A stretch of 22,599 nucleotides of DNA from Verrucomicrobiia bacterium (lineage in GTDB: Bacteria; Verrucomicrobiota; Verrucomicrobiia; Opitutales; Opitutaceae): NCBI GenBank assembly GCA_030424825.1, contig JAUHWE010000007.1, positions 1 to 22,599 on the forward strand, written 5' to 3'. This document shows positions 2,015 through 15,980 of this stretch, piece by piece; position 1 is the stretch's first letter, and each line of letters begins with the position of its first letter. The notes under the pieces were generated by a model. It did not search any database, had not been told where the DNA came from, and was given only the letters and a program-made list of their open reading frames with translations. The position numbers and the translations under genes are program-made.

Positions 2015-2539
2015 ATGAAGAAAACCTTATCTCTCATCTTCATCTTTTCACTCATCGCCGCCAGTAGCCTCGCCCAAGCCGATTTCACCATCACTCAAGG
2101 AATCGAGCGGATCGAATTAACGGTCGATGGACTTGCTTGTCCCTTCTGCACGAAGGGTCTGGGGATGCGACTGGAGAAGGTCGAGCATGTCACGAGCATC
2201 TCGATTCACCTCCAAAAAGGTGTCGCTGAAATAGGCTTCGACAAGAAATCCCTGCCGGATTTTCGAGCCCTATGGCACGCGGTCGGAGAGGCAGGCTTCA
2301 CGCCTTCGAAACTCAGCATCGAGGCGGTCGGAAAATTGGCAGGTGAGAAAGGAACGCTGCATCTCTCGGTATCGTTCAATGGTCAAAACCTTACGATCCC
2401 TCTAAGGAACGAAAGCTCATTACTCAAAAATGTGAATACATCGAAATTCGTAAAAATAGCCGCCTACACGAACTTTGACGAGGGACCTCGATTCAATCTA
2501 GGAATAGCCGATTCTGTTATAATGCCAACCAGCCACTGA
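2015..2539 (+). CDS. Secreted heavy-metal-associated (MerP-like) protein with C-terminal extension
   Basis: 174 residues. The signal peptide covers residues 1-22 (basic start, hydrophobic core LSLIFIFSLIAASS, cleavage near AQA), so the product is periplasmic. An HMA fold follows at residues about 30-100 (RIELTVDGLACPFC), with metal ligands C42 and C45 in a CPFC variant of the usual MxCxxC. A C-terminal part of about 70 residues (from GTLHLSVSFNGQ) has no motif I recognise, so the protein is longer than MerP (about 90 residues). It lies 75 nt after the thioredoxin-like gene; that gap contains a small GCGAA/TTCGC hairpin at 1961-1976. The next gene starts 9 nt downstream. Likely role: periplasmic binding or hand-over of a soft metal. 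Hg is suggested by the MerR and MerTP context but not shown. Confidence 0.75.
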   Translation: MKKTLSLIFIFSLIAASSLAQADFTITQGIERIELTVDGLACPFCTKGLGMRLEKVEHVTSISIHLQKGVAEIGFDKKSLPDFRALWHAVGEAGFTPSKLSIEAVGKLAGEKGTLHLSVSFNGQNLTIPLRNESSLLKNVNTSKFVKIAAYTNFDEGPRFNLGIADSVIMPTSH

Positions 2540-2548
2540 TTCAATGCC

Positions 2549-3415
2549 ATGACGCCCAAAACGATCATCGCATCTTTCCTATTGGCAGCCCAAGCGACAG
2601 CGGCACCCATTACCTTCAATACGGCTCTGCCAGTAGCAAAGGAAGACTACGTCATACGTTTGATAAGCAGCGATTCGACCATGGAGAATGATTCGGAATC
2701 AAGGCTAGATGTATCCAATATTTCATTCATAGCAGCCTATGGAATAGATAGCGACCTCGCCTTCTACGCGGCAATACCGATTCTCGAAAAACGCTACTCA
2801 AGCGCAGGTCGCGTACTCGGGACAAACGGACTTGGCGATACAAGGCTGTTCGCACGCCAAACCCTTTGGCAACACGACCGGCGCGGCGCCACCTCCCGGT
2901 TAGCGACGTTTGGAGGTATCGAAGTCCCGACCGGCAAAAATGATATCTCAGATGCCAACGGGCTGTTGCCACGTCCCTCTCAGTTGGGATCAGGAGCCTG
3001 GGACACCTTCCTCGGGTTTGTTTTCACCCATCAGGAATTCGGCTGGCAAGTCGATCTCTCGACAACACGCAAAATCCAAGGGACGCACGAGCAATTTAAA
3101 GCAGGAAATGAAACGCGACTCGACCTATCCCTCCAAAAACGAATGCTTCCCCATACGCTGGTCGACGATGATTGGAAAGGATTCCTTTACGGAGTAGTCG
3201 AACTCAATGCCTTGTGGAGCGAAAAAGCCGTAACTCAAGGCAATCTCGACATAAGAAACGGGGGCGAAGATATCGCATCGGCGATCGGCGTCCAGTACAT
3301 AACAAGATCTTGGATACTCGAAACCGCCTACAAATTCCCAGTTTCTCACACTCGCCACACAAACGCCATGTCTCTAGAAAAAGGCATCGTTTTAAGCCTT
3401 CGACGCAACTTCTGA
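2549..3415 (+). CDS. Outer-membrane beta-barrel transporter-like protein
   Basis: 288 residues. A signal peptide ends about residue 19 (FLLAAQATAA). The rest alternates polar and hydrophobic residues in short strands and ends in an aromatic residue (SLRRNF), the C-terminal Phe typical of barrels assembled by BAM. Segments such as GLGDTRLFARQT and GGIEVPTGKND resemble the 'transporter' / MetA-pathway phenol-degradation barrel family (PF13557 type), which is seen beside metal genes in several phyla. It starts 9 nt after the secreted HMA gene with no clear Shine-Dalgarno, so it is probably translationally coupled. It is the last gene of the merR2 group; the merTP promoter begins just after its stop. 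An outer-membrane route for the metal or its carrier is an inference. Confidence 0.75.
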   Translation: MTPKTIIASFLLAAQATAAPITFNTALPVAKEDYVIRLISSDSTMENDSESRLDVSNISFIAAYGIDSDLAFYAAIPILEKRYSSAGRVLGTNGLGDTRLFARQTLWQHDRRGATSRLATFGGIEVPTGKNDISDANGLLPRPSQLGSGAWDTFLGFVFTHQEFGWQVDLSTTRKIQGTHEQFKAGNETRLDLSLQKRMLPHTLVDDDWKGFLYGVVELNALWSEKAVTQGNLDIRNGGEDIASAIGVQYITRSWILETAYKFPVSHTRHTNAMSLEKGIVLSLRRNF

Positions 3416-3427
3416 AACCACAAACGC

Positions 3428-3460
3428 CTTTACCTTATACCTTACTGCAAGGTTTATAAC
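3428..3460 (+). promoter_or_regulatory. MerR-type promoter/operator, copy 2 (merTP promoter)
   Basis: A -35 TTTACC at 3429-3434, 20-bp spacer and -10 TATAAC at 3455-3460, with inverted repeat ACCTT/AAGGT in the spacer. The 32 bases 3428-3459 are identical to 1107-1138, which strongly suggests the same regulator (probably MerR1). The predicted start falls at about 3467, one base before the merTP ATG at 3468, so this message should also be leaderless. Confidence 0.82.
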
Positions 3461-3467
3461 GCAGACG

Positions 3468-4091
3468 ATGATTGAGGAGGGAGAATCGAAGCAGAGAAAC
3501 TGGCTGCTGACAGGAGGACTGGGGGCGGCGTTCCTTGGGTCGCTTTGCTGTATCGGACCGGCCGTCTTCATCGCCTTGGGTTTCGGAAGCTTCGCGGCGG
3601 GAGCATTCTTCGAGAGCATTCGCCCCTGGATGGGAGGGCTCGCAATCATCGCTTTAGCCTTCGCGTGGCGACAAGCGCTTCGCAAGAAACCCTATCTAAA
3701 TGAGGCATGCGAGGTCCACCCCAAACGAGACAAAGGGCAAATAGCCATGCTAAGTATCGGGACACTGCTGGCCGTTGGCCTTCTGGCATATCCCTACATT
3801 TCGGAAAGAATCCCCGAAATGCGAAATGCGGATTCAATCGAGGAAGCTGATGGGGCGACCCGTCTCACCGTATCGATTCCGAGCATGGATTGCGCGTCCT
3901 GCGCGGTCGGCATTCAAAGCACACTCGTCGAACTAGAAGGCATCGAAAATGCCCGCATCACTTACGAATCCAAGCTCGCTCAAATCGCCTACGATTCGCG
4001 TCAGATTACGGAAACAGAGATCCTAGAAACCATTGAAGCAACCGGATTTCCTGCAAAGCAAATTCCTCCCAACGAAAATCATGTCCAATAG
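3468..4091 (+). CDS. merTP: MerT-MerP fusion, mercuric-type transport protein
   Basis: 207 residues. The N-terminal part is MerT-like: three predicted membrane helices (about 13-40, 50-70, 92-111), with the vicinal pair C27-C28 in helix 1 (GSLCCIGPAVF), the hallmark of MerT, and one Cys (C81) in the cytoplasmic loop where MerT usually has two. After a linker, residues about 131-200 form a MerP-like HMA domain with M140-D-C142-A-S-C145. In the known system Hg(II) is captured by MerP, passed to MerT and delivered to cytosolic MerA. Here capture and transport are fused and no merA is present. The gene is driven by its own MerR-type promoter. The ATG at 3468 is the only start compatible with helix 1. 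The next gene overlaps its end by 11 nt. Hg is likely, but other thiophilic metals are possible. Confidence 0.88.
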   Translation: MIEEGESKQRNWLLTGGLGAAFLGSLCCIGPAVFIALGFGSFAAGAFFESIRPWMGGLAIIALAFAWRQALRKKPYLNEACEVHPKRDKGQIAMLSIGTLLAVGLLAYPYISERIPEMRNADSIEEADGATRLTVSIPSMDCASCAVGIQSTLVELEGIENARITYESKLAQIAYDSRQITETEILETIEATGFPAKQIPPNENHVQ

Positions 4092-4320
4092 CCAGAGCGT
4101 CAAACCCGATTCGAGAATCACATGTCCGCATTGCGGCCACAGCCAGACCGACACAATGCCGACCGACCGCTGTCAGTTCTTCTGGAAATGCCCGAGCTGC
4201 GAATCGCTCCTCAAGCCCAAGAAAGGAGACTGCTGCGTGTATTGTTCTTACGGAGACACGCCTTGCCCGCCTATTCAGCAAGGAGATTGCTGCGGACGAT
4301 CTTTACCTACGGATTTGTAG
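4081..4320 (+). CDS. Small Cys-rich 'GDCC' zinc-ribbon-like protein
   Basis: 79 residues with 12 cysteines and no signal peptide. There is a CPHC (15/18), C31, CPSC (37/40) set that resembles a zinc ribbon, then the striking block GDCCVYCSYGDTPCPPIQ (C51, C52, C55, C62) and a final QGDCCG (C70, C71). I remember similar GDCC-x2-CSYG proteins of unknown function next to mercury transport genes. I give no further function. The start at 4081 was chosen over an in-frame ATG 48 nt upstream because it gives the compact domain and an 11-nt overlap with merTP, typical of coupled genes. Possible roles are a cytosolic Hg or Zn thiol buffer, or an acceptor for metal brought in by MerTP in the absence of MerA. 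Confidence 0.75.
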   Translation: MSNSQSVKPDSRITCPHCGHSQTDTMPTDRCQFFWKCPSCESLLKPKKGDCCVYCSYGDTPCPPIQQGDCCGRSLPTDL

Positions 4321-4595
4321 AAACACTTTTTCTCTCAAAGCTAACGTATTCAGCTGTTTCGAGGTAAAGCCTACACCGTCAACACTACTTTTCTTCCTAA
4401 AGCTAGATCGAAAGGAGCCAAGGCCCCATCGCGATTCTCCCATCGTCGAGAGAGATGGCAAAATCGAGCGGAACCCTGTACGGTAACCAACTATTTGCAA
4501 AGCATTGGCGTTAAGAAATTAAAATGTTTGAAAAAGATAATAATCTTGATAACTGAAGCAATATTAAGATAGGTCTCGCCGTCTACTAGTTAAGA
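4321..4595 (+). other. Non-coding region before the first efflux operon
   Basis: No convincing gene is visible. 4505-4575 is strongly AT-rich and is the likely promoter region for the CzcI-like gene. It holds a short palindrome AAGAT-AATA-ATCTT (4534-4547) and hexamers resembling a -35 (TTGAAA 4528, TTGATA 4546), but no -10 at good spacing. An isolated 9-bp match to one half of the merR2 operator (ACCCTGTAC, 4473-4481) is present without its partner half. Confidence 0.4.
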
Positions 4596-5033
4596 ATGAA
4601 GTTCTCCGCTACAGCACTTTGCCTCCTGACCATCGTCGTAAACACGGCGACAGCGTTTTCGGGCGGCACGCTGTTCTGCAAGCACGAGACTGGCGATTCG
4701 CATGTGATTTCTAAGGTGGCTCACGAGTCCGAGTCCCACCTAGACAGTTGCCACAGCCCAGCAGCCGAGCTGGAACTTGGGCACGACCATCCCCAGTCCT
4801 GCAACTCCTGTACCGATACCGAAATCGAAAACAAATCGGATATGGACAGGGCTACTTCGGGAAGTGATCGCTCATTGGTCAAAAGCCCTGCGGCTCTCTT
4901 GTGCATCGTCCAGCAAATCGCTCTGGAGCTGCCGACACCGCGCCTCATAGAGGGATCACATCCCGCGAGAGCGCCTCCAATTTTTGAGTACACGTTCGCG
5001 GTCCATATAGAATCGACCGTTCTGAGAGTCTGA
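4596..5033 (+). CDS. CzcI-like secreted Cys/His protein, copy 1
   Basis: 145 residues. The signal peptide ends near residue 20 (NTATA). The mature part has C28-K-H-E, a His-rich stretch (SESHLDSCHS, GHDH), C69-N-S-C72-TD and a C-terminal SHPARAPPI, ending STVLRV. From memory, CzcI of Cupriavidus, the first gene of czcICBA, shares a signal peptide, a YCQHE-like motif, a His stretch, DCGVC and a late ARAP. Gene position agrees: it precedes the outer-membrane factor, adaptor and pump. It is paralogous to the protein at 14058, with C28, C69 and C72 at identical residue numbers. CzcI is thought to affect expression of its operon, so a regulatory or metal-binding periplasmic role is plausible. Its stop codon sits one base before the RNA structure at 5035-5125. 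Confidence 0.68.
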   Translation: MKFSATALCLLTIVVNTATAFSGGTLFCKHETGDSHVISKVAHESESHLDSCHSPAAELELGHDHPQSCNSCTDTEIENKSDMDRATSGSDRSLVKSPAALLCIVQQIALELPTPRLIEGSHPARAPPIFEYTFAVHIESTVLRV

Positions 5034-5130
5034 TACTCCTGAATGTCTAGCTACGCTTGGCAGCTTCCTGCCGAGCGATCTCCCACACTCCTTGAGAGTG
5101 CGGATAAGCTAATCCATTCAGGAGTTTTTT
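5034..5130 (+). promoter_or_regulatory. Structured intercistronic RNA that buries the Shine-Dalgarno, copy 1
   Basis: Seen directly: a perfect 11-bp closing helix pairs 5035-5045 with 5115-5125 (ACTCCTGAATG/CATTCAGGAGT). After a 2x3 internal loop a 5-bp helix pairs 5048-5052 with 5107-5111. Inside are two hairpins: 5054-5063 with 5068-5077 (10 bp, one GU, loop CUUC) and 5086-5090 with 5096-5100 (5 bp, plus 2 bp beyond a mismatch). The Shine-Dalgarno AGGAG (5120-5124) of the downstream gene is fully paired with CTCCT (5036-5040). The helix begins one base after the upstream TGA (5031-5033), so a terminating ribosome would cover its 5' arm. Six Ts (5125-5130) follow the helix, so a terminator role is an alternative. 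The same architecture recurs at 14487-14602. Confidence 0.75.
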
Positions 5131-6405
5131 ATGTTCAGATTTTCTCGATTAACCATATTACTAGCACTACACGTATCCATAGCTTCAGCAGTAACCGCTG
5201 AAACGAAAATCAGTGACGCGCTCTCGAAAGAAGAGCTCGTTCAACTCGCCCTCAGCCAGAACAAGTATCTGCAGGCTGCCCAAAAGACGGTAGAACAAGC
5301 TCAAGCTCGCCGCTTATTAGCCGGCAAGTGGGACGACCCGGAGCTGTCCATCGACTATTCGACTGATTGGGTGTTCAACAACGAAGGTGAATCCACTTTT
5401 GGCATCGCCTTCGAGCAGCGCTTCCCCATAGCCAAGCGCATAGGCCTCCAAAAGGAGATCGCGGAAATCGAAATCGAGCTCGCCCGAGCGGAGATTCGAA
5501 ACTTCCAGCGTGTCCTCGTAAGAGACCTAGAACTAGCGGTGAACGACATCGCCCACACTGACGCCCAACTCGATTTGCGGCATTCGTTAGTGAAGCTAAA
5601 CACGGAATTCGCCGAATTCGTCGAATCTCGCATCGCGACCGCAGAGGCTTCCGAACTCGACGCCAACCAGGTTAAGATCGAGCTCTACGTCATTGAACAG
5701 GAAATACAGAATCTGGGCAACGAGCGTAATGCCCGCCTTGCCGACCTGCGCGGGCTCGCAGGTTTCGAACCCGATCAGGATCTAGATGTTTCCGAATCGC
5801 TCAGACACTTGAACGGGCAGCCAGACTTGCCTCGCTCAAACCTCGCGGATTTGAATTCCCATCCGGAATACCAGCTTAGAACGCTGCTCTTGGATATTGC
5901 CGACAAAGAGACCAGGCTGGCCATGCGCAGCCGCTGGGAGGACGTTACCCTTGGAGTCGGTTTTGAAAACGAACGATCCGTGGATGAACCCACCGGAATC
6001 GGTACGGATCGGTTCTTCGGAGTCAGCGTCTCGATCCCGCTTCCGGTCCGTAATCGCTATGAACCAGCGCTCAAGGAAAGCGTTGCTAAACAGGGGCAAC
6101 TGCAGGCTGCACTCCAAGCGACGTCTCTCGACCTGAGAACCCGTGCGGAGTCATTGAGGCAGCAAGCTCTCAACCTCTATGAACAGGCGAGACACTACGA
6201 AACCAACATTACGCAACTCGTAGAGGACAACCTCGAAAAATTGAACGCCGCCTATGGGGCTGGGCAGGTAAGCCTCAATGAGCTCTTCCGCTCACAGGAA
6301 CGGCGAGTGAAAATCCAGTCGGCGCACTTGACCATGGTCCACGACTACCGCCAAGCGCTGGTCGAATGGGAAGCCGCCACCGCCCGAAACATAATCAATC
6401 AATAA
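5131..6405 (+). CDS. TolC/CzcC-family outer-membrane efflux factor 1
   Basis: 424 residues. A signal peptide ends about residue 23 (SIASAVTAE). The mature protein has the two-fold outer-membrane efflux protein architecture: long amphipathic helices (ALSQNKYLQAAQKTVEQAQA, then EIAEIEIELARAEIR...DLELAVNDIAH) alternating with short strand segments, repeated in the second half (GIGTDRFFGVSVSIPLPVRN, then a long helix to VSLNELFRSQERR). Length is typical of CzcC/CusC. No lipobox is evident, unlike CusC. It should form the trimeric outer-membrane channel with the adaptor and pump encoded next. The ATG at 5131 has Shine-Dalgarno AGGAG 6 nt upstream, which is sequestered in the RNA structure before it. 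The adaptor gene starts 15 nt after the stop. Family assignment is secure. Confidence 0.92.
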   Translation: MFRFSRLTILLALHVSIASAVTAETKISDALSKEELVQLALSQNKYLQAAQKTVEQAQARRLLAGKWDDPELSIDYSTDWVFNNEGESTFGIAFEQRFPIAKRIGLQKEIAEIEIELARAEIRNFQRVLVRDLELAVNDIAHTDAQLDLRHSLVKLNTEFAEFVESRIATAEASELDANQVKIELYVIEQEIQNLGNERNARLADLRGLAGFEPDQDLDVSESLRHLNGQPDLPRSNLADLNSHPEYQLRTLLLDIADKETRLAMRSRWEDVTLGVGFENERSVDEPTGIGTDRFFGVSVSIPLPVRNRYEPALKESVAKQGQLQAALQATSLDLRTRAESLRQQALNLYEQARHYETNITQLVEDNLEKLNAAYGAGQVSLNELFRSQERRVKIQSAHLTMVHDYRQALVEWEAATARNIINQ

Positions 6406-6420
6406 ATTCACTCTTACGAA

Positions 6421-7545
6421 ATGAAATCGAAACTTTCTATACTCGCGCTCCTTACCGGAGCCAACTGCCTGTTCGCCCAAGACGCCAGTAACATGGTGAT
6501 CCTAGACGAAAACGGCATACATAACTTAGGTATTCAAATTGCGGAGGCGGAAGAAATGGAATTCGAAACTACCGTATTCGCAATCGGCAGAATCGAAGAC
6601 ATTCCCTCGAACCGCTCCGTCCTGTCCAGTCGCATTCCCGGTCGGGTGATCGAGCTCACCGCGTTCGTGGGCGACACCGTATCCGCGGGACAAACACTTG
6701 CTAGAATCGAAAGCCGTCAATTAGGCGACCCACCTCCAAGCATCGAACTAAAAGCGCCTCAACAGGGAAAAGTCATCGATTCCCACGTACGTCTCGGGCA
6801 GCCAGTCGAACCAGATGCCGAGCTCCTCGACATTGCAGATCGCTCACGCATGTGGGCAGTGGCGAAGATCCCCGAGCAGGAAGCCGCTCTCGTTCGCATA
6901 GGCTCCCAGGCTCACATCCGCATACCTGCGCTGGGCGGCCAACTGATCGACGCTACGCTCCAGCGCTTCGGAGTCGATGCCGACCGCCAAGCGGGCACCG
7001 TTGAAGGGATATTCGTCCTCGATAATCCCGACTTGAAGCTAAGTCCTGGCATGCGAGCCGAGTTCTCTATCGTGCTCAGTTCTCGCGAAAACGTTCTCTC
7101 AGTACCCAAGGAATCTATACAAGGAACTCCTGCGGAAAGAGTCGTTTTTGTTAAAGATTTCGATTTGCCAAACGCATTCATCCGCACGCCCGTTCGCCTA
7201 GGCGAGCAAAACGACCAGTTCGTCGAAATTGTAGGCGGGCTCTTCCCAAGTGACGAAGTCGTCACCCGAGGCTCCTATTCATTGGGCTTCGCTGGAGGAG
7301 GGAGCGGCGTATCGCTAAAGGACGCTCTGGATGCGGCCCATGGCCATGAGCATAACGAAGACGGCTCTGAGATGACCAACGAACAAGAGTCTGAAGGCGA
7401 CCATGGACACGATCACGGCGAGGAAGGCGGATCCCATGCAGGATCATCAAACCCGCTCTGGATGATCTATTCCGGAATCACGACTGTGATTTGCGTAGTG
7501 CTTGCCCAACTCCTTTGGAGAAAGCGTTCCAACTCTAATTCATAA
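6421..7545 (+). CDS. RND periplasmic adaptor without helical hairpin, with His-rich tail and C-terminal membrane helix
   Basis: 374 residues. The signal peptide ends about residue 19-20 (CLFAQ). Residues about 65-140 form a lipoyl/barrel-sandwich domain: GRVIELTAFVGDTVSAGQTLARIES, then KAPQQGKVIDSHVRLGQPV. The two lipoyl halves are joined by only about ten residues (around RQLGDPPPS, 99-107), whereas CzcB/CusB-type adaptors carry a long alpha-hairpin here that reaches the outer-membrane channel. Beta-barrel and membrane-proximal parts follow to about 290. The C-terminus is unusual: a His/acidic stretch (residues 307-339, HGHEHNEDG... and GDHGHDHGEEGGSH), then a hydrophobic helix (about 345-365) ending in WRKRSNSNS, so it is probably anchored in the inner membrane at both the pump and the metal-binding tail. 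The pump gene begins 5 nt downstream. Confidence 0.88.
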   Translation: MKSKLSILALLTGANCLFAQDASNMVILDENGIHNLGIQIAEAEEMEFETTVFAIGRIEDIPSNRSVLSSRIPGRVIELTAFVGDTVSAGQTLARIESRQLGDPPPSIELKAPQQGKVIDSHVRLGQPVEPDAELLDIADRSRMWAVAKIPEQEAALVRIGSQAHIRIPALGGQLIDATLQRFGVDADRQAGTVEGIFVLDNPDLKLSPGMRAEFSIVLSSRENVLSVPKESIQGTPAERVVFVKDFDLPNAFIRTPVRLGEQNDQFVEIVGGLFPSDEVVTRGSYSLGFAGGGSGVSLKDALDAAHGHEHNEDGSEMTNEQESEGDHGHDHGEEGGSHAGSSNPLWMIYSGITTVICVVLAQLLWRKRSNSNS

Positions 7546-7550
7546 CGGCC

Positions 7551-10500
7551 ATGCTCAATCATCTTATACGATTTTCACTCAAGCAAAGAGCGCTCGTCAT
7601 AGCGGCAGCCTTGGTCGTCTTACTTTGGGGAGCTAAAACTACACTCGAACTACCCGTCGATGTACTCCCAGACCTGACCAAACCCACCGTTACACTCCTC
7701 ACCGAAGCTTCCGGCTTCGCCCCCGAGGAAGTGGAGACGCTCGTCACCGTACCACTAGAAAATGCCCTCATGGGCGTGACTGGCGTGACCCGCCTTCGCT
7801 CGGTCAATGACATCGGTCTTTCCCTTATTTTCGTAGAATTCGAATGGGGCACCGATATCTACCGAGCTCGACAGTTCGTGCAGGAACGCATTACCGGCAC
7901 AGCCGAAACGCTGCCAGAAGGAGTAAGTCCCTACATGACCCCCGTCGCTTCCCTCATGGGTAACATCCTGCTCGTCGGCCTCGTCGACCCCAGCGGGAAG
8001 ACCGATGCTAGGGACCTTCGAACGCTGGCAGACTGGACCGTCGCTCGCCGGTTCCAATCCATCCCTGGAATCGCCGAGGTGCTCTCCATGGGTGGAGGTG
8101 TCAAGCAAGTGCAGGTACAGCCGAATCCCGACAAGATGCTAGCGCTCGGTGTAAGTTTCGATCAAATACACAATGCCGCCCAAAAAGCCGTAAAGAATAC
8201 CACTGGCGGCTTCCTCACCGAGTCCGCGCAAGAGATCATGGTGAGGAACCTCGCCATGACAACAGATCTCGATGAGATCTCGGATACCGTCGTAAGCTAT
8301 GAGAACGACCGACCGATTCGGCTAAAAGACGTGGCGGAAATTCGCTGGGACATCGAACCCATGAGAGGCGACGCCGGACTCGGCAGCAAACTGCTGTCGG
8401 AGTCGGGCTCCCACGATGAGGCAGAAGGCTACCTTGGCGTGATACTCAGCGTAACAAAGTCGCCTGGGTTCGACACTTTGAGCCTTACTAAGGAGGTCGA
8501 AGACGCGATGGCCGAACTGCAGGAAACTCTTCCCGAAGGCGTGAAGCTCTTGACCGTTTACAGGCAATCCGACTTCATCGAACTCTCCATCGGCAATTTG
8601 GAGGAGGCTCTGCGAGACGGAGCGATTATGGTCGCTCTTGTCCTTTTTCTATTCCTCCTGAATTTCCGCATCACATTCATTACGCTCACGGCGATACCGC
8701 TCTCGCTAGGCATAACCGTGATAGTATTCGATTTATTTGGACTCGGCGTCAACTCCATGACGCTTGGCGGACTCGCCGTAGCCATCGGCATGGTGGTCGA
8801 CGACGCCATCGTTAACGTGGAAAACGTATACCGGCGACTACGTGAAAACTCCGCCAAGAAAAGCTCTCAGCCAGCACTCGAGGTTATCGCAGAAGCCTCA
8901 GCCGAGGTAAGGTCTTCGATTCTCTACGCCACGATTCTAATTATTCTCGTATTCGTTCCGCTTCTAGCGCTCAGCGGCGTGGAAGGTCGGCTCTTTTCCC
9001 CCATAGCGGTGGCGACCATTGTGAGTATGGCGGCCTCGTTCTTTGTATCGATAACGGTTATACCCGTTCTCGGCTCCTTCCTGCTCAAACCGAAGGACAA
9101 CAAGCAGCACAAAGACGTGTTCTTCGTGCGTTTCCTTAAATGGGCATTTAGCAAGACCTGGCTCAACTTGTCGCTGACACACCCCTTTCTCGTGTTCTTG
9201 ATAACTGGCGGACTTCTCTACTTCGCTTACGTATCCTTTATGGGGATGGGCGCCAACTTCCTGCCAGCATTTCGCGAACCTACCGTCGTGGTCGCTACGA
9301 CTACCGCTCCGGGGACCTCGCTCAAGCAGACTACCGAGATCGCTTCGACCCTACAGGACCTGCTGCTCGAGATTCCAGAGGTCGAAACGGTGGCATTCCG
9401 CGTTGGCCGCGCCGAACGCGGGGACCACGTCGTACCTGTATCCACCGTCGAGTTCGATGTGGAATTCAAAAGGGAACGCGAACGCGAACGAGGCGAGATT
9501 CTCGCCGACATCCGCGCTGCGACTCAAAGCCTGCCTGGAACCTTCAGCGCTCTCAGCGGCCCGCTCGCAGACCGTATCGGGCACATGCTTAGCGGGGTTT
9601 CCGCAAAGGTTGCGGTAAAGATCTACGGACCAGATCTCAACGAACTGAGAAAGCTAGGCACCGACATCGCCGACATCGCTCGAAGCATTCCGGGGCTCGA
9701 GGAAGCTCGCGTTGAACAACAAGCGCCCATCCCTCAACTCCGTATAGAAGTCGACCGCAAGCGAGCACTCGCATACGGTATCACACCGGGCGACCTCAAC
9801 GAGCAACTTGCTGCGCTCATGGGCGGCGAGGCCGTTTCTGAAATCTATGAAGGCCAGCGCGTCTACGACCTCGTCGTGCGGCTCCCGCTTGAGTGGCGCG
9901 AATCCCCACATCGTCTGGCCAAACTCTACATCGATACTCAGAGCGGTCAGCGTGTCCCTCTCAGCTATGTAGCAAACATCAGGCAAGCGACAGGGCCAAA
10001 CACCATTCTTCGCGAGAACACCGTTCGTCGATTCGTCGTATCCATAAATCCCACAGTCGACGACCTCAACTCCGTGGTCGAAAGACTTCAGGCGGAAGTC
10101 AATGAACGCATAATGCTCCCAACGGGTTACACCATAGCTTTCGAAGGAGAATACCAAGCCCAGCAAGAAGCGAGACGAATCATCTTCATAACGTCCTGTA
10201 TCATCATGCTGGTGATCGTCTTCCTGCTCTATAGCTATTTTCAGGGGTTCGGCTTCGTCGCGCTCGTGCTGACGATACTACCGATTTCGCTCATCGGTAG
10301 CGTCATCTACACGCGGTACACGCTCGACAATATTAGTATCGCAACGCTTGTCGGTTTCATCGCCGTGGCAGGAATCGCTGCGCGAAATAACATCATGCTC
10401 ATTTCCCACTACCTCCACATGATGAGACACGAAGGCGAGAAATTCACGCGAGCGATGGTGGAGAGAGGAACGTTGGAACGCCTTGTCCCCATACTTATGA

Positions 10501-10712
10501 CCGCCATCTCAGCTGGACTAGCGCTCATTCCTCTGGTTCTCGCTGCAGACGAACCGGGCAAGGAAATCCTAAACCCTGTCGCCATCGTCATTGTCGGCGG
10601 ACTCGTCAGCTCCACATTTCTGGGCTTGGGCGTCACGCCCGCGCTTTTCTATCTCTTCGGCCGCAAAGCATCCGAAAGGGCCATCAAACTTAAGGCCGCT
10701 GCATCCGAATAA
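7551..10712 (+). CDS. Heavy-metal RND efflux pump 1 (CusA-like TM4 triad)
   Basis: 1053 residues, the normal length for CusA/CzcA-type proton antiporters. N-terminal helix 1 (residues 8-30) is followed by the porter domain (ELPVDVLPDLTKPTV, then GFAPEEVETLVTVPLE), six helices, a second porter domain (GANFLPAFREPTVVV) and six more helices, the usual duplicated 12-helix plan. The TM4 proton-relay segment reads AIGMVVDDAIVNVEN (411-425): A411, D417, E424. This matches the spacing and identity A399/D405/E412 of CusA rather than D402/D408/E415 of CzcA. However, the region matching CusA M573 (YMPST) reads VATTT here, so a Cu/Ag assignment is not secure. It follows the adaptor by 5 nt and is followed by the His-rich protein at 10743. 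Confidence 0.95.
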   Translation: MLNHLIRFSLKQRALVIAAALVVLLWGAKTTLELPVDVLPDLTKPTVTLLTEASGFAPEEVETLVTVPLENALMGVTGVTRLRSVNDIGLSLIFVEFEWGTDIYRARQFVQERITGTAETLPEGVSPYMTPVASLMGNILLVGLVDPSGKTDARDLRTLADWTVARRFQSIPGIAEVLSMGGGVKQVQVQPNPDKMLALGVSFDQIHNAAQKAVKNTTGGFLTESAQEIMVRNLAMTTDLDEISDTVVSYENDRPIRLKDVAEIRWDIEPMRGDAGLGSKLLSESGSHDEAEGYLGVILSVTKSPGFDTLSLTKEVEDAMAELQETLPEGVKLLTVYRQSDFIELSIGNLEEALRDGAIMVALVLFLFLLNFRITFITLTAIPLSLGITVIVFDLFGLGVNSMTLGGLAVAIGMVVDDAIVNVENVYRRLRENSAKKSSQPALEVIAEASAEVRSSILYATILIILVFVPLLALSGVEGRLFSPIAVATIVSMAASFFVSITVIPVLGSFLLKPKDNKQHKDVFFVRFLKWAFSKTWLNLSLTHPFLVFLITGGLLYFAYVSFMGMGANFLPAFREPTVVVATTTAPGTSLKQTTEIASTLQDLLLEIPEVETVAFRVGRAERGDHVVPVSTVEFDVEFKRERERERGEILADIRAATQSLPGTFSALSGPLADRIGHMLSGVSAKVAVKIYGPDLNELRKLGTDIADIARSIPGLEEARVEQQAPIPQLRIEVDRKRALAYGITPGDLNEQLAALMGGEAVSEIYEGQRVYDLVVRLPLEWRESPHRLAKLYIDTQSGQRVPLSYVANIRQATGPNTILRENTVRRFVVSINPTVDDLNSVVERLQAEVNERIMLPTGYTIAFEGEYQAQQEARRIIFITSCIIMLVIVFLLYSYFQGFGFVALVLTILPISLIGSVIYTRYTLDNISIATLVGFIAVAGIAARNNIMLISHYLHMMRHEGEKFTRAMVERGTLERLVPILMTAISAGLALIPLVLAADEPGKEILNPVAIVIVGGLVSSTFLGLGVTPALFYLFGRKASERAIKLKAAASE

Positions 10713-10742
10713 TCGAATCAACCAATAACCATGTAATATATT

Positions 10743-11306
10743 ATGTATACAACAATTAAAACGCTTATTACTATCCTAGCCTCGTTCGGCGCGTTCGCTC
10801 TGGCCAACGCTCAAGACCGTGATCACGACCATGATCATGGCGATCATGCCGGTCACGATCACGAAGACCACGGACACGAAGGTCATGAGCACGGCGAGAT
10901 CGAAGCCCCAAACGGAGGTCGAATCGTTGATTCAGTGGAACCGCATCTCGAGTTCTACGTCGACGACAGCGGAAAAGTGAAAATTACTTTCCTCGACGAG
11001 GAAGGGCACATCGTTGCTCCTGGTGACCAGCATATCAGTGTCATCGGAGGAGAACGTTCGAATCCTACGCGTTTGAGCTTCACGAAATCCGGAAACGCTC
11101 TCGTTTCCGATAAATCGCTACCCGAAGGAAACAACCTTCCAATTATCCTTAACATCAAGGCAAGCGCGCGTTCCAAAACCGTTCGAGAAAAGTTTAATCT
11201 CAATCTCAGCGAATGCCCGACGTGCGACCACCAAGAATACGCCTGCGTATGCGAACACGGTGAAGATGACCACGAGGAGCATGGTCACGAAGGCCACGAC
11301 CATTAG
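10743..11306 (+). CDS. His-rich secreted metal-binding protein
   Basis: 187 residues. The signal peptide ends about residue 23 (FALANAQ). The mature N-terminus is a dense His/Asp run (residues 28-50, HDHDHGDHAGHDHEDHGHEG). A central beta-rich domain follows, starting APNGGRIVDSVEPHLEFYV and running to about residue 155, like the NGGR/PHxEF-type small domains often found beside RND metal pumps. The C-terminus has C158-P-T-C161, then C168-V-C170-EHG and a second His cluster (DDHEEHGHEGHDH). The pattern suggests a periplasmic Zn/Co/Ni/Cu buffer or donor for the pump encoded 30 nt upstream. The CxCEHG motif echoes the CxEH modules of the adaptor at 15981. No close named homologue is recognised. 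Metal binding is likely, specificity unknown. Confidence 0.78.
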   Translation: MYTTIKTLITILASFGAFALANAQDRDHDHDHGDHAGHDHEDHGHEGHEHGEIEAPNGGRIVDSVEPHLEFYVDDSGKVKITFLDEEGHIVAPGDQHISVIGGERSNPTRLSFTKSGNALVSDKSLPEGNNLPIILNIKASARSKTVREKFNLNLSECPTCDHQEYACVCEHGEDDHEEHGHEGHDH

Positions 11307-11341
11307 TCCAAATACGAATTGCTCACAGACAGCAACCCATC

Positions 11342-11375
11342 GCTGCCAGCATTCGACATTATGAAGGCTGGCAGC
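11342..11375 (+). other. Strong hairpin between the His-rich gene and the first GxHxHI gene
   Basis: A perfect 9-bp inverted repeat GCTGCCAGC (11342-11350) / GCTGGCAGC (11367-11375) with a 16-nt loop, in the 91-nt gap. No T-run follows, so it is not a standard intrinsic terminator. It could be an mRNA-processing or stability stem that separates the efflux operon from the next genes. Confidence 0.5.
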
Positions 11376-11397
11376 ATGAAAGATACCACACTACTGT

Positions 11398-11832
11398 ATG
11401 AAAACGAATCAATCTGTTAGTCATATCGCAAGAACAGCAATGGCCATCTCCCTATTGTCGATTCACTCTTTAATCGCGGGAGATAAACCAAACGAATATT
11501 CACCAACTATTGAAATAGAGAACGAAGGGCGTGTTGTTGAGGCCCTTTCTGTGAAAGCTGTTACTAGGAAAGACAATTTATGGCTACGTATTAGAATGTC
11601 TAGGCGCAGTTCTATGAACTTTCCTGGAGGATGCCATCTACACATCGAACTGTACAATAGGAATGGCGAGCTCTTAAAAACAGACTACCAGAAAATTTCC
11701 CCATTCGGTTTTCATCGACATAAGATTGGAAGATTCCGAACACGGACAATACACTACAATTCTGAGTTAAATCCGGCAGACGTAGAAAGAATATCAATAC
11801 ATGCCTATCAGCAAAAACACGACAACGAATAA
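11398..11832 (+). CDS. Secreted GxHxHI-family protein, copy A (unrecognised family)
   Basis: 144 residues. A probable signal peptide covers residues 1-27 (AMAISLLSIHSLIAG). The mature domain has beta-rich segments and the motif G78-C-H-L-H-I83 followed by ELYNRNGELL, and ends near residue 141 with ISIHAYQQKH. The same two motifs, about 61-65 residues apart, recur in the proteins at 11845 and 13556, so the three are paralogous. I do not recognise the family. The two His of the first motif plus the His of QKH suggest a metal site, and copy A adds a Cys. Codon use is more AT-rich than in its neighbours. It sits 12 nt before copy B, so the two are co-transcribed. Function is unknown; a periplasmic metal chaperone is a guess from context. 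Confidence 0.68.
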   Translation: MKTNQSVSHIARTAMAISLLSIHSLIAGDKPNEYSPTIEIENEGRVVEALSVKAVTRKDNLWLRIRMSRRSSMNFPGGCHLHIELYNRNGELLKTDYQKISPFGFHRHKIGRFRTRTIHYNSELNPADVERISIHAYQQKHDNE

Positions 11833-11844
11833 CCATACTTTCCG

Positions 11845-12312
11845 ATGTACCCAGTTAAAAGCTACCTTTACCTAAAACAAGCGATCGTTCTTGTGATCGC
11901 TTCGTCGATGAGCACCGCCGCTTTAGCGGAAACGGTATCAGCTTCTAAAATCGAGCTTCCGAACGAGCACGAATTCATTCGCATTGAAAACGTATCGATC
12001 GTTGAAAAGGAGGGTAAAACCGCGATCAACGGCTCCGCGATCAAGTTTAGAGACAGATTCATGATCTGGGGTTCCCATCTGCATATCGACCTCGTCGACC
12101 TGACGACAAACGAAGAGGGCGAGGTAGTGGAAGTTCTACTTGAGAGAGAAGTCTACAGATTTCGCCGCAACGACTTCGACGATGGCGAACGACTCGAACG
12201 ATTCTTCAAGTATGTCGATCTATCCAATCCCAATATAGACAAGATCGTTCTCGAAACGTACACCCAGAGGCACGATGACACGTGCGGCCTTGAAGAACAG
12301 GCCTCCGATTAA
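11845..12312 (+). CDS. Secreted GxHxHI-family protein, copy B (unrecognised family)
   Basis: 155 residues. The signal peptide ends about residue 29 (STAALAE). The mature protein contains G76-S-H-L-H-I81-DLVD, then GEVVEVLL, a charged stretch (YRFRRNDFDDGERLERF) and the closing IVLETYTQRH (QRH 141-143), continuing into an acidic tail with one Cys (DDTCGLEEQ). The spacing of the two motifs (65 residues) parallels copies A (61) and C (63). Overall identity to A and C is low outside the motifs, so the duplication is old or the copies have diverged in role. It follows copy A by 12 nt and precedes the small basic membrane protein by 24 nt. Probably periplasmic. Metal binding is suggested by the conserved His residues but not demonstrated. 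Confidence 0.7.
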   Translation: MYPVKSYLYLKQAIVLVIASSMSTAALAETVSASKIELPNEHEFIRIENVSIVEKEGKTAINGSAIKFRDRFMIWGSHLHIDLVDLTTNEEGEVVEVLLEREVYRFRRNDFDDGERLERFFKYVDLSNPNIDKIVLETYTQRHDDTCGLEEQASD

Positions 12313-12336
12313 CCTTAAACCTTCGTTGACTAAGGA

Positions 12337-12627
12337 ATGCCCAAGAGCAAAAGCCGAAAGCGACCAAGGCAGATCCGACAAGGCGGGCGACTTCAACGAG
12401 CTAAAGAAAAGAAGCTAGCCGAGGACCAGAAAACGAATCGGAATCTGGCAATCGGCCTTGGCCTCGCTACGCTCGTAGTATGGATCACTCTGTATATATT
12501 CAAGCAGAGAGATCTCGCTACGCAAGGGTACTCGCGAGTCCCAATTGTATTCTACATACTCAAGTGGAGTCTCGCAGCGTTCTCGGCCGGCGCCATCTTC
12601 AGCTGGGTAAAGAATCGCAAATTCTAA
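12337..12627 (+). CDS. Small basic-headed two-helix membrane protein
   Basis: 96 residues. The first 33 or so residues are highly basic (KSKSRKRPRQIRQGGRLQRA and on), followed by two predicted membrane helices (about 37-54 and 71-90), a short loop (KQRDLATQGYSRVP) and a basic end (KNRKF). By the positive-inside rule both ends face the cytoplasm. No metal-binding residues stand out. AAGGA lies directly before the ATG (12332-12336). The CDF exporter gene begins 11 nt after its stop, so it is likely to be co-expressed and could be an accessory of that exporter. A protein with the same plan occurs at 22020-22277 on the other strand. I do not recognise the family. Confidence 0.62.
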   Translation: MPKSKSRKRPRQIRQGGRLQRAKEKKLAEDQKTNRNLAIGLGLATLVVWITLYIFKQRDLATQGYSRVPIVFYILKWSLAAFSAGAIFSWVKNRKF

Positions 12628-12638
12628 GAAACGCCATC

Positions 12639-13553
12639 ATGAGTCACGACCACAGCCATGGAACAGAGGAAGTTTCCGACAAGGCCCTTTTCTGGGCCCT
12701 TTTACTAAATGTCGGCCTCTCGGTCTTCGAGTTCGCTGCAGGCATAATCGCCGGAAGCGTCGCGCTCATGGCGGATGCCTTGCACAATACAAACGATGCA
12801 GCAGCCCTGCTTATTGCCTACGTTGCCAGAAAGATTTCCCGGAAAGGCGCAGACAGGGCCTACACCTTCGGCTACCGAAGGGCCGAGCTCATTGGAGCTA
12901 TGATCCAGCTCACGGCCCTCATTCTCGTCGGACTGTATCTGGTCTATGAGGGCGTCACTAGATTCTTCAACCCACAGCCGATTCTAGGCGGCTGGATGAT
13001 GGCCGCTTCCGGCGTCGCGCTCATTGTCGATCTCGGAACCGTTTGGCTGTTATGGGCCATGTCAAAAGGAAGCCTAAACGTCAAAGCCGCCTTCCTGCAC
13101 AACCTCACCGACGCTGCGGCTTCGGTAGCCGTTATGGCAGGTGGAGCCGCCGTGTATTGGCTTTCCTGGGACTGGATCGATCCCGCTCTCACGCTAGTTA
13201 TAGCCGGATACATCCTCTACATGTCATTCGGCCTCATCCGGAAGACCTCAAAGATCCTTATGCAAGCCACTCCAGACGGGCTCGATCTTGAGGAATTGAA
13301 AACCAAGACCGAAAAAATCGAAGGAGTCTGCGAAATCCACCACCTGCACGTCTGGGAACTAGACGAGCACCACCGAGCCTTAGAGGCTCATATCGTCATT
13401 TCCGACGAAAGATTACGGGATATTGAAACGATCAAGTCGCGAGTTAAGAATCTCCTTAAAACCCGCTACGACATCGCCCACTCCACTCTGGAATTCGAAA
13501 CGTCTTCCCAAGCTTGTGGAGAGGAACACAACCATTTCATCGCTAAACATTGA
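12639..13553 (+). CDS. czcD: CDF cation exporter (CzcD/ZitB type)
   Basis: 304 residues, typical CDF length. It begins MSHDHSHG, a His motif common in CzcD. Six predicted helices follow. The transport-site pairs are H49-x3-D53 in helix 2 (ADALHNTNDA) and H154-x3-D158 in helix 5 (FLHNLTDA), the HxxxD arrangement of Zn/Cd/Co-exporting CDF proteins such as ZitB. The cytoplasmic C-terminal domain (from about 205) contains HHLHVWELDEHHRALEAH, a regulatory metal-binding fold, and the tail ends CGEEHNHFIAKH. A longer open frame extends upstream, but it overlaps the preceding gene and lacks CDF sequence, so the ATG at 12639 is chosen. It should move Zn2+ or similar ions from cytoplasm to periplasm, where the RND systems can pick them up. 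Confidence 0.92.
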   Translation: MSHDHSHGTEEVSDKALFWALLLNVGLSVFEFAAGIIAGSVALMADALHNTNDAAALLIAYVARKISRKGADRAYTFGYRRAELIGAMIQLTALILVGLYLVYEGVTRFFNPQPILGGWMMAASGVALIVDLGTVWLLWAMSKGSLNVKAAFLHNLTDAAASVAVMAGGAAVYWLSWDWIDPALTLVIAGYILYMSFGLIRKTSKILMQATPDGLDLEELKTKTEKIEGVCEIHHLHVWELDEHHRALEAHIVISDERLRDIETIKSRVKNLLKTRYDIAHSTLEFETSSQACGEEHNHFIAKH

Positions 13554-13555
13554 AG

Positions 13556-13975
13556 ATGATTAAGCTAAGCCGTATTGTTTTGTGGCTCACATTCGCCACC
13601 ACTCTGGCGATTCCGGTCGGCTCTGCCACCGAAATATACGTCTCCCAGCAAAATGGTTATCTGACTTTCAAGCAACCCCGTCTCAAGAACGACAAGAAGG
13701 GCGCGAAGCTGGTTGGGCGGCTATACAGCAAGCATTTTCACCGGATCAAGCAAGGAAGCCATATGCATATCAATGTGTACGATGCCGAAGGAACTCTGCT
13801 CGAAGACATCCTTGAATCCACCGATAGAAGAGTCTTCCATCAAAAGCATAAACGCGACCGAGGTTACATATTCCCCGCCCACGTCATCAGATTAGAGTCC
13901 AACTTCGGAGAAATCGCTCTCATTAAAATTTACGTATACGATCAGAGACACTACGAATTCGAGATCTATGACTAA
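13556..13975 (+). CDS. Secreted GxHxHI-family protein, copy C (unrecognised family)
   Basis: 139 residues from the ATG at 13556. A TTG at 13550 would add two residues but overlaps the CDF stop (13551-13553), so the ATG is preferred. The signal peptide ends about residue 24 (IPVGSATE). The mature domain holds G67-S-H-M-H-I72-NVYDAEGTLL and closes with IKIYVYDQRH (QRH 130-132), matching copies A and B. Extra histidines lie before (SKHFHRIKQ) and after the motif (VFHQKHKR). Placed 2 nt after the CDF exporter, it is probably translationally coupled to it, which is the strongest contextual link between this family and metal export. Function unknown; a periplasmic metal-binding protein is a reasonable hypothesis. 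Confidence 0.7.
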   Translation: MIKLSRIVLWLTFATTLAIPVGSATEIYVSQQNGYLTFKQPRLKNDKKGAKLVGRLYSKHFHRIKQGSHMHINVYDAEGTLLEDILESTDRRVFHQKHKRDRGYIFPAHVIRLESNFGEIALIKIYVYDQRHYEFEIYD

Positions 13976-14057
13976 CAGACATTAATGAGAGCCGATCTCA
14001 AAAAAGGCTTGATATTTCGGCAATCTGGACCGATTAAGAACCGTACATTGAAATGTA

Positions 14058-14486
14058 ATGAGATCTCTCGTCGCACTCAGCTTCTCAATCGCCCTCGCTT
14101 GCAATTCTGCACTAGCGGGCGTTGGTGGTTTGATCTACTGCGTCGAGAATGACTCTGGGGAGGTTTGCAGCGTCTCGGCTGAGAATGCCTCTGGCATCCC
14201 GGAAACTTGTTGCCCGTTGGAGCAAGCCAAGGGTCTTGCAAGCTTTCCGCTTCCTTTCGAATGCGATCATTGCACAGACTACGAAGTCGATGTGAGCGGT
14301 GAAGGCGCCACTCCGAAAGTCGACCGAGTCGTCGTGAAAGCCAACGCTGTCATGGCTTGGATCTCGACGGATCTGATTGTCGTTCGCAGTAAAAAGGCAG
14401 TTTTTAAGAAGGCCCCTGCAAGAGGTCCTCCGATACAGAACGGAGCATCTCAGCTATTTGCAGACACCATCGTGTTCCGCGTCTGA
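14058..14486 (+). CDS. CzcI-like secreted Cys protein, copy 2
   Basis: 142 residues. The signal peptide ends near residue 20 (CNSALA). The mature part begins GVGGLIYC28 and has additional cysteines (C37, C51-C52), then C69-D-H-C72-TDYEV and a late PARGPPI, ending ADTIVFRV. Relative to copy 1 (4596), GG-x3-[FY]C, C-x2-CTD, PAR-x-PPI and the terminal [LF]RV are all conserved and the three key cysteines have the same residue numbers, but the His-rich stretch of copy 1 is missing. It heads the second efflux operon, as CzcI heads czcICBA. The stop codon is followed at once by the second structured RNA. A weak TTGATA at 14009 is the only -35-like element I see before it. The role is probably regulatory or metal-binding in the periplasm. 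Confidence 0.65.
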   Translation: MRSLVALSFSIALACNSALAGVGGLIYCVENDSGEVCSVSAENASGIPETCCPLEQAKGLASFPLPFECDHCTDYEVDVSGEGATPKVDRVVVKANAVMAWISTDLIVVRSKKAVFKKAPARGPPIQNGASQLFADTIVFRV

Positions 14487-14602
14487 TATTCTGTTTTAGA
14501 TTCGATCCCATCCTAAGCACGCCGTTGTGCTTCGGACTACGTTGACCGCGATTCCTCAAAGGAAAATCGCGTCTCACATTCGAAAATGAAACAGGATATT
14601 TC
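14487..14602 (+). promoter_or_regulatory. Structured intercistronic RNA that buries the Shine-Dalgarno, copy 2
   Basis: Directly after the TGA (14484-14486), 14487-14498 pairs with 14587-14598 (12 bp including two GU). A symmetric 2x2 loop is followed by a 5-bp helix 14501-14505 / 14580-14584. Two internal hairpins follow: 14515-14520 / 14527-14532 (AAGCAC/GTGCTT, plus 3 bp beyond a mismatch) and 14547-14553 / 14565-14571 (CGCGATT/AATCGCG). The Shine-Dalgarno AGGA (14593-14596), 6 nt before the ATG at 14603, is paired. The plan matches 5034-5130 with a largely different sequence; only the GTCTGATA around the stop, the CTG arm and CAGGA are shared. This indicates a conserved fold, not a recent copy. 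Confidence 0.75.
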
Positions 14603-15961
14603 ATGCCCTTCCATCAATTTTCATCTCAAATAATAGCGCCAAAATGGCGTTGCAGATTATTAACTTATTCGCTCGTAGCCTCGCTATCACTAGGGTGTTC
14701 GGTCGCATACGGACAAGCCCCTGTTTATACGGCTCCTCGTGACATTCCTAGCGATAAGGGAGCTCCTAGGGTTCTAGGTACGGTCACACTTCGACAGGCT
14801 ATCTCGCTAGCCATCGAGCACAGCCCAGAGTTTCAAGCGCTCGCATGGGATGCCAACGGTTCGCTCGCCAGAATTCGCCAAGCTCGCCTCTGGCCAAATC
14901 CGGAACTTGAATACGAACGCGAGAATTTCGGGGGCACAGGAAAGTTCGACGGCTCGGACTTCGCCGAATCCACGCTAAGCCTCGCCCAAAGTCTCCCGCT
15001 TGGCGGGGACATCAAGCAACGACGCAAGATTGCAGAGCTGGATTCCCAGCTCGCCGACTGGGACTATCATGCAGCCCGTCTTCAAACAATTGCCGAAGTG
15101 ACGCGGCGATTTGTCGTCGCTCTCGCTGCGGACCGGAGTCTGGAACTCGCCAAGCAAGAGCTTGAGCTCGCTCAGGCCACAAAGAAGCTCACTCAAAGCC
15201 GCGTTGACGCGGGTGACGCATCGCCGGTAGAACTGTCCCGCGTCGTCGTCCCTGTCATCAAGGCCGAGCTTGCTCTCAAGCGGGCGGAGAGGCTTAGCGA
15301 TGCCGCTCATCGCAGCCTTTCCCTAAGCTGGGGAGAAAGAGTAGTGACGTTCACGGAAATCGCTGGCGACCTGGAGGAACTGTCGCCAGCCCCCAGCCCC
15401 GAGGCCTTGGTCCAGCACCTAGGCGAGAATCCAAATGTCGCTCGCTGGGCCATCGAAATCAGCGCTCGAATCACCGAGCGTCATCTCGCAAAGGCCGAAG
15501 CCATCCCAAACCTCACAGGACGAATCGGACTCAGGAGGGACAACGAAAGCGGCGACGAGGCGCTCGTAGTGGGTATTTCTCTACCGCTACCTCTATTTGA
15601 CAGAGGACAAGTGCAAATCCAATCCGCCCGAGCAGGCGAAGCTTCGGCCCGTAGTCGCCAAAGAGCTGCTGAACTTCGCCTAGAAGGACTCCTCAGTGAA
15701 GCCTATTTCGATCTGGCTAACGCCTACGATGAAGCCGTCGCCATCCGCGACCGAGCCCTCCCCGCTGCGGAAGATGCCTACCAAGGTACACAGCTCGCGT
15801 TCAAAGAAGGCAAACTCCCCTTTCTCGATGTCCTCGACGCCCAGCGAACCCTCTTCGAGCTCCAAGAAAGCTACCTTCAAGCCCTCCAAGCCTACCATCT
15901 CGGAACCGCAAATATCGAATCGCTTATCGGTCGGAGTCTCGCCGATCTGCATAACAAATAA
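14603..15961 (+). CDS. czcC: TolC/CzcC-family outer-membrane efflux factor 2
   Basis: 452 residues. The N-terminus has a basic stretch, then a hydrophobic core (LLTYSLVASLSLGCSVAYGQ). LSLGC could be a lipobox, giving a lipoprotein like CusC, or the signal may be cleaved at YGQA. The mature protein shows the two-fold efflux-channel pattern: VTLRQAISLAIEHSPEFQAL, ARLWPNPELEYERENFGG, long helices with many Ala/Glu, then VVGISLPLPLFDRGQVQIQS in the second repeat and KEGKLPFLDVLDAQRTLFEL near the end, which are standard CzcC-type motifs. Translation starts at an ATG whose Shine-Dalgarno lies in the RNA helix described before it. The adaptor follows after 19 nt. It is only distantly related to the channel at 5131, so the two operons are not a simple tandem duplication. 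Confidence 0.92.
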   Translation: MPFHQFSSQIIAPKWRCRLLTYSLVASLSLGCSVAYGQAPVYTAPRDIPSDKGAPRVLGTVTLRQAISLAIEHSPEFQALAWDANGSLARIRQARLWPNPELEYERENFGGTGKFDGSDFAESTLSLAQSLPLGGDIKQRRKIAELDSQLADWDYHAARLQTIAEVTRRFVVALAADRSLELAKQELELAQATKKLTQSRVDAGDASPVELSRVVVPVIKAELALKRAERLSDAAHRSLSLSWGERVVTFTEIAGDLEELSPAPSPEALVQHLGENPNVARWAIEISARITERHLAKAEAIPNLTGRIGLRRDNESGDEALVVGISLPLPLFDRGQVQIQSARAGEASARSRQRAAELRLEGLLSEAYFDLANAYDEAVAIRDRALPAAEDAYQGTQLAFKEGKLPFLDVLDAQRTLFELQESYLQALQAYHLGTANIESLIGRSLADLHNK

Positions 15962-15980
15962 CCTTCCAAACAAAACAATT

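Follow-up and report, generated by a model that had tools for sequence, protein, structure and literature searches.

The window, that is, the whole stretch of 22,599 nucleotides analysed from a Verrucomicrobiia bacterium, comprises two metal-efflux operons, each of which opens with the gene of a small Cys/His leader with a hydrophobic start, followed by the gene of an outer-membrane channel. In the first operon, the space between these two genes is filled by a compact RNA predicted to pair the Shine-Dalgarno sequence (SD) of the channel gene, raising the question of what opens this RNA and to which signal the opening responds. The evidence points to a translational gate opened by the ribosome that completes the leader and, at lower confidence, to an arrest of leader translation that metal would relieve.

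The RNA junction and its copies in the genome

The RNA at 5034-5130 folds with an energy of -47.2 kcal/mol (z -7.5), a stability reached by none of 200 shuffles, and its minimum free energy (MFE) structure coincides with the centroid. The leaders, RNA elements and channel genes of both junctions lie on the forward strand. Directly after the stop codon TGA of leader 1 (5031-5033), the predicted structure comprises (i) the closing helix P1, with 11 bp between 5035-5045 and 5115-5125; (ii) an internal loop between P1 and P2 (5046-5047/5112-5114); (iii) the helix P2, with 5 bp between 5048-5052 and 5107-5111; (iv) the hairpin P3 (5054-5077), with 10 bp between 5054-5063 and 5068-5077; and (v) the hairpin P4 (5083-5103), in which 2+5 bp flank a 1x1 mismatch (5083-5084 and 5086-5090 with 5096-5100 and 5102-5103). 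The SD of the channel gene, AGGAG at 5120-5124, lies within P1 and pairs with CTCCT at 5036-5040, as the preliminary description had read from the letters and as the fold bears out. The remaining helices of that description stand as well, except that it had counted only 5 bp in P4. The downstream gene encodes the outer-membrane efflux channel 1 (OEP, CzcC-like; 5131-6405; PF02321, E=1.8e-35).

The second copy of the RNA reported earlier is real. The junction at 14484-14605 differs in sequence and follows the same plan, with a folding z of -5.7. The 5' arm of its P1 (14485-14498) begins inside the stop codon of leader 2 in the MFE structure, and the 3' arm (14587-14600) contains the SD AGGA (14593-14596), followed by the outer-membrane efflux channel 2 (OEP; 14603-15961; PF02321, E=4.7e-46). 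A third leader/RNA copy of the same genome is located on contig C784. A dispersed repeat was considered and rejected, given that the search of the own genome for related DNA beyond the window copy returned just five stretches of 14-17 bases. At the gathering score, Rfam release 15 contains no match to the junction in the window or in the loci of 20 relatives; the only Rfam match among the loci of these relatives is a tRNA gene upstream of the operon (929-1000 of locus L049, genome G039).

The SDs of the two gated channels, AGGAG and AGGA, are strong, and 10 of 12 other gene starts examined in the window (2015-20714) lack AGG, GGA, GAG or AAG 4-16 nt upstream; a strong SD may be used at the gated channels since it can be locked. 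In addition, the window contains other features related to metal handling. A 52-nt direct repeat (1101-1152 and 3422-3473, 85% identical) contains ACCTTATACCTTACTGCAAGGT, which we take to resemble a MerR-type operator; one copy lies between two MerR-type genes and the other just upstream of a MerT-like gene. Positions 3468-4091 encode a MerT-like transporter that carries a fused heavy-metal-associated domain, and the second periplasmic adaptor carries a Cys/His-rich segment in two 72-nt copies (16209-16280 and 16284-16355, 75 nt apart, 76% identical).

Occurrence among relatives

Of the 11 genomes of the genus, 8 contain a leader match, as do 36 of the 372 of the order; these searches with a leader profile gave 50 matches in total and 49 readable junctions, the leader of G002:C267 being cut by a contig end and left out. 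A weak early leader match with an internal stop (G008/L017) was not recovered by the profile and was not used. The closing-helix RNA fills the gap in 47 of the 49 protein-found junctions. Its state varies: in L029 the closing helix is short and interrupted, and in L061 the helix is kept without an SD. L036 represents a natural broken gate, with a gap of 316 nt in which the 5' arm of P1 is gone and the SD-bearing 3' arm is kept, and nothing comparable to the gate fold was seen at the L032 junction; both L032 and L036 were excluded from the set of 63 junctions.

The non-redundant set comprises 54 junctions, with those at least 90% alike removed, and includes loci found later by the RNA model: 41 are protein-found and 13 were found by the RNA model, which favours pairing. 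L087, L091 and L116-L119 were left out of the leader-motif, SD-opening, shuffle and P1-pairing analyses. Across the 54 junctions, the distance from leader stop to channel ATG ranges from 81 to 120 nt, and the CCT that pairs with the SD begins 1-6 nt past the leader stop (50 junctions). The gene downstream of the RNA encodes an OEP in 52/54 cases and HupE/UreJ in 2/54. Named relatives with the leader and RNA include Opitutales, Opitutaceae or Opitutae bacteria, a Coraliomargarita and Puniceicoccus vermicola.

A search of related genomes with a covariance model, suggested in the preliminary description, finds the RNA again at leader junctions. The model R2, built from 25 junctions, replaced the model R1, which was too narrow and missed known copies of the own genome. 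In the 372 genomes of the order, R2 gave 43 matches in 31 genomes at E<=0.5, 20 of them training sites. Outside the training sites, 22 of 23 matches have a leader upstream and a metal gene downstream (a channel gene in 20 and HupE/UreJ in 2); one of these 22, G002:C174, has most of its leader beyond the contig end. The remaining and weakest match (G209, E 0.448) falls within a coding region and seems to be a chance hit. A search across the phylum (387 genomes) gave matches at E<=0.05 in 11 genomes; two of these, G467 and G539 with three matches between them, are not members of the order, and there too the RNA is located between leader and channel. The RNA travels with the leader, not with the channel.

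At two loci, L098 and L112, the RNA follows a His-rich leader and precedes a HupE/UreJ gene confirmed by Pfam, which suggests a nickel or cobalt version of the system. A further variant, L118, is the fourth leader-channel junction of genome G368, with a shorter RNA and with RSPP 17 residues before the leader stop.

Pairing and covariation

The pairing of P1 was evaluated with anchors placed solely on the CCT after the leader stop and the AGG before the ATG. In 44 of the 47 protein-found junctions, near-duplicates included, 505 of 660 cells pair, versus 180-297 when one side is slid. L027, L061 and L067 could not be anchored; L027 is the second copy in the window and has a U-G wobble. In 50 of the 54 non-redundant junctions, with L096 as a further locus that could not be anchored, 437 of 550 cells pair, the shuffle maximum being 386. 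Double-change cells number 76, versus a shuffle maximum of 51 and 23-47 in slid versions, controls that do not remove relatedness; the number of pairs showing any double change, eight, is not above that of the slid versions (5-8). At the pair adjoining UCCU/AGGA, the genus of the window has both G-C and A-U, and another family shows A-U there as well. Compensatory change, on whose presence in homologous junctions the preliminary description had made the structure depend, is found: judged from these alignments, the closing helix that holds the channel SD covaries.

The interior of the junction folds into two hairpins in 52/53 cases, compared to 48% of shuffles, with a median z of -3.0. An alignment of 23 diverse members confines the invariant columns to P1, the SD and the start codon, with the hairpins poorly aligned. 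MAFFT aligns the hairpins poorly across subgroups, and they were thus judged by folding against shuffles and not by covariation. These data bear on the suggestion that the junction itself senses a metal or another ligand, which has fared worse than the gate. A metal-binding aptamer acting as a riboswitch would be consistent with the regular two-hairpin interior; nevertheless, the lack of an invariant interior column in the 23 members, read through that poor hairpin alignment, and a shape that is kept while its letters are seemingly free speak against it, and such an aptamer is very improbable.

A second suggestion was that the RNA, with its T6 run, serves as a terminator. As a transcription attenuator, P1 and the U-rich spacer that follows it would terminate transcription unless a ribosome blocked the 5' arm, and at least five T in a row do follow the helix in 30 of 51 junctions. 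The run is absent in the other 21, P1 encloses about 70 nt, and invariance within P1 is confined to the SD and its complement. In addition, a scan restricted to loops of 3-8 called no terminator-like site in 4300-5400. Together these observations make an attenuator quite improbable.

Computed opening of the Shine-Dalgarno sequence

The cost of opening the SD was computed with the mRNA under the ribosome held open, assuming a cover from 18 nt before to 13 nt from the A-site; this set, like that of the interior shuffles, comprises 53 junctions, with L061 left out. The median cost is 9.84 kcal/mol without a ribosome and 2.04 kcal/mol with a ribosome at the leader stop, and it falls by at least 3 kcal/mol in 49 of the 53 junctions, gating being weak in L029, L055, L064 and L097. 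When the ribosome is moved in six-base steps, the median stays at 9.6-10.3 kcal/mol at positions between 75 and 15 bases ahead of the stop, reaches 8.68 at nine bases and drops to 1.83 at three. Shuffled junctions open at 2.82 kcal/mol, and a drop of at least 3 kcal/mol is seen in 0/159 of them. The gating is unchanged for a leading edge of the ribosome of 9-15 nt (27 junctions).

Pairing of the SD with 16S rRNA is assumed in these genomes. A 13-base pattern for the 16S anti-SD was matched in 6 of 19 genomes, the one match checked being no rRNA, and an rRNA model search gave no match in four genomes.

The proposal that a ribosome finishing the CzcI-like protein would free the SD of the channel is thus strongly supported, on comparative and computational grounds, by the covariation of P1, by the context of the R2 matches and by the computed opening. 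On the basis of covariation and computed folding, channel synthesis very probably depends on complete translation of the leader.

The leader protein

Leader 1 (4596-5033, 145 aa) is an apparently secreted CzcI/CutF/CruR-like Cys/His peptide with a CxxC motif, CNSC (4800-4811), as candidate metal site, and with RAPP (4968-4979), 17 residues before the stop, as candidate arrest motif. Leader 2 (14058-14486, 142 aa; 26% identity to leader 1) displays the same arrangement, with CDHC at 14262-14273 and RGPP at 14421-14432, again 17 residues before the stop. The gap between CxxC and RAPP or RGPP is 52 and 49 residues in the two window leaders. Leader 1 has no Pfam or NCBIfam match of its own.

The motif [RQ][AGV]PP, hereafter RxPP, is present in 44 of the 54 non-redundant leaders (29 RAPP, 8 RGPP, 6 QAPP and 1 RVPP) and in both window leaders. 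It stands exactly 17 residues before the stop in 36/54 leaders (26/41 among the protein-found ones alone) and 15-18 residues before it in 44/54. Any CxxC occurs in 22/54 leaders, and three cysteines are nearly invariant (51, 47 and 47 of 53 leaders). The mean relative entropy is 1.66 at the N-terminus, 1.04 in the middle and 1.80 in the last 22 residues. The C-terminus, which adjoins the gate, shows a conserved L-R-[VIL]-stop, with the third-last Leu in 40/54 leaders and the penultimate Arg in 50/54; five different codons encode this Arg, indicating that selection acts on the peptide. The fixed RxPP spacing and the C-terminal motif could alternatively stem from what the protein does or from an additional stall at the stop.

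By analogy, the upstream protein looks like a regulatory nascent peptide of the CruR/CutF type, a likeness that the preliminary description had overlooked and that is drawn from features and not from a profile. RAPP and RGPP are established arrest motifs (PMC10951233; PMC12992588), and according to the available text of one source they are strongly avoided in bacterial proteomes and enriched near the C-termini of small secreted proteins (PMC12992588). This distribution, together with the stronger conservation of the last 22 residues compared to the middle, counts against plain translational coupling, in which the gate would merely tie the channel to leader synthesis and the RxPP and C-terminal motifs would serve the mature protein with no metal sensing. 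On the other hand, plain coupling would accommodate the 10/54 leaders that lack RxPP and keep the RNA. Six of these leaders, among them that of the third copy in this genome, belong to the genus of the window, where most leaders lack RxPP and keep the gate. Strongly conserved residues also occur elsewhere in the leader (C28, C52, C72 and D74). We consider plain coupling fairly unlikely.

With the ribosome at RxPP, the SD opening cost falls by at least 3 kcal/mol in 0/44 placements. Given that none of these placements unlocks the SD, an arrest at RxPP should keep the pump off and its relief should turn the pump on.

Proposed mechanism

In the proposed mechanism, the strong SD of the channel would be locked in P1 of the compact two-hairpin RNA, and only a ribosome reading the leader to its end would cover the 5' arm of P1 and free the SD. 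RxPP would arrest the ribosome about 54 nt before the stop. The leading edge of the arrested ribosome would then be about 40 nt away from the stop and would not reach P1, leaving the gate shut and the pump off. Metal bound to the Cys/His sites of the leader would relieve the arrest, allowing the ribosome to reach the stop, P1 to open and the efflux channel to be made.

We infer both that the ribosome arrests at RxPP and that metal relieves this arrest, as well as which metal acts. That the leader acts as a metal-sensing nascent peptide, whose arrest keeps the gate shut until metal relieves it and efflux is made, has about an even chance, and the whole explanation, joining the translational gate to a metal-released leader arrest, has a probability of roughly 0.6. 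More tentatively, at somewhat below even odds, the loci might form one family of metal sensors, with an arrest at a near-fixed position about 54 nt before the RNA gate and a ribosome, freed by metal, that opens the gate at the stop. Turning the pump on by relief would be the sensible sign for efflux, and it matches the metal response of CruR.

The opposite sign deserves consideration. As in SecM or CutF, a stall at or next to the leader stop, within L-R-[VIL]-stop, could be strengthened by metal and hold P1 open. The computed gate does open exactly at the leader stop, and the penultimate Arg is under selection as an amino acid, as its varied codons indicate. We know of no described arrest motif of the form L-R-[VIL]-stop, which counts against such a stall. 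In the available text of the sources, CutF is published with this sign (PMC9973294), and the arrest of CruR was mapped to RAPP, by toeprint, with the two Pro codons in the P and A sites (PMC12992588), a position that here lies about 54 nt too early. A metal-strengthened stall at the stop is unlikely, and the release of an RxPP arrest by metal is preferred.

If this preferred mechanism is true, RND metal efflux in Verrucomicrobiota would seem to be controlled post-transcriptionally.

Comparison with known systems

The leaders resemble CzcI in being small proteins encoded ahead of czcCBA-type genes (PMC9973294, in its available text). The CzcI profile NF045614 gives weak matches only, in 3/53 leaders at E<=1 (best 0.012), with none for the window leaders at E<=0.1. 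A plasmid search for proteobacterial relatives yielded two stretches, of which one junction was folded: this leader-TolC junction of a Cupriavidus plasmid (L114) has no comparable gate, a ribosome at the stop changing its SD cost from 6.2 to 4.6 kcal/mol. Full-text searches of the open literature, with subscription papers mostly outside their reach, led to work on CruR, CutF and RAPP in general, and the available text of these sources mentions neither this RNA nor an SD gate between czcI and czcC.

Compared to SecM-secA, MifM and VemP, the proposed system shares an arrest peptide upstream of an SD-sequestering stem-loop; those peptides, as described in the accessible part of the source, monitor protein localisation, and their arrest opens the stem (PMC10987492). 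The proposed gate would reverse this logic of SecM and CutF, in which stalling opens the stem, and would use a response of the CruR type, in which metal relieves the arrest.

CruR from Bordetella pertussis is likewise a leader with CXXC and RAPP; its CXXC senses Cu, and copper relieves the RAPP arrest (PMC9426467), as is proposed here for the Verrucomicrobiota leaders. According to the portion of that report available, two differences stand out: (i) the RAPP of CruR lies three residues from the end, whereas here a 17-residue tail usually follows RxPP; and (ii) CruR turns a TonB-dependent transporter off by Rho-dependent termination, whereas the predicted SD gate would turn efflux on (PMC9426467). 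If the mechanism is true, the arrest chemistry of CruR would give the opposite output, a pump switched on instead of an importer switched off, set only by the position of the motif relative to the stop and the RNA; one metal-responsive arrest motif would thus be wired to opposite outputs by geometry alone.

A parallel in layout is CutF/cutO from Rhodobacter capsulatus, where a stem-loop between the two genes conceals the SD and where Cu, as proposed there, favours a stalling that opens the stem (PMC9973294). The available text of this source supports several likenesses: a small secreted leader with a Cys metal site and a Pro-containing C-terminus; the SD of the next gene hidden in an intergenic stem, there with leader translation required; and a position of CutF-like genes ahead of OEP genes or, where the protein is rich in His, ahead of HupE/UreJ genes, with most such gaps below 100 nt, the same two contexts in which the model R2 found the RNA (PMC9973294). 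The profile of DUF2946 (PF11162), the family of CruR and CutF, matches 4/53 leaders at E<=1, the best (L043) at E 0.033, that is 15.4 bits and below the cut-off of 23.7, with none for the window leaders. The match of L043 ends at its RAPP, so that by sequence the tail after RAPP appears to be an extension relative to the DUF2946 family. The cutF-cutO stem-loop occupies a gap of 40 bp (PMC8456105, as far as available), whereas the RNA described here is a two-hairpin structure of 81-120 nt. A stall near enough to open the stem, as in CutF, is also not what RxPP provides in the computed placements; about 54 nt before the stop, an arrest should keep the gate shut.

The general design therefore has a precedent in the smaller SD-hiding stem-loop at cutF-cutO, to which the present system compares as an SD gate joined to a regulatory nascent peptide. 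If the mechanism is true, a well-supported RNA family would be added to the SD-locking elements read by a nascent peptide.
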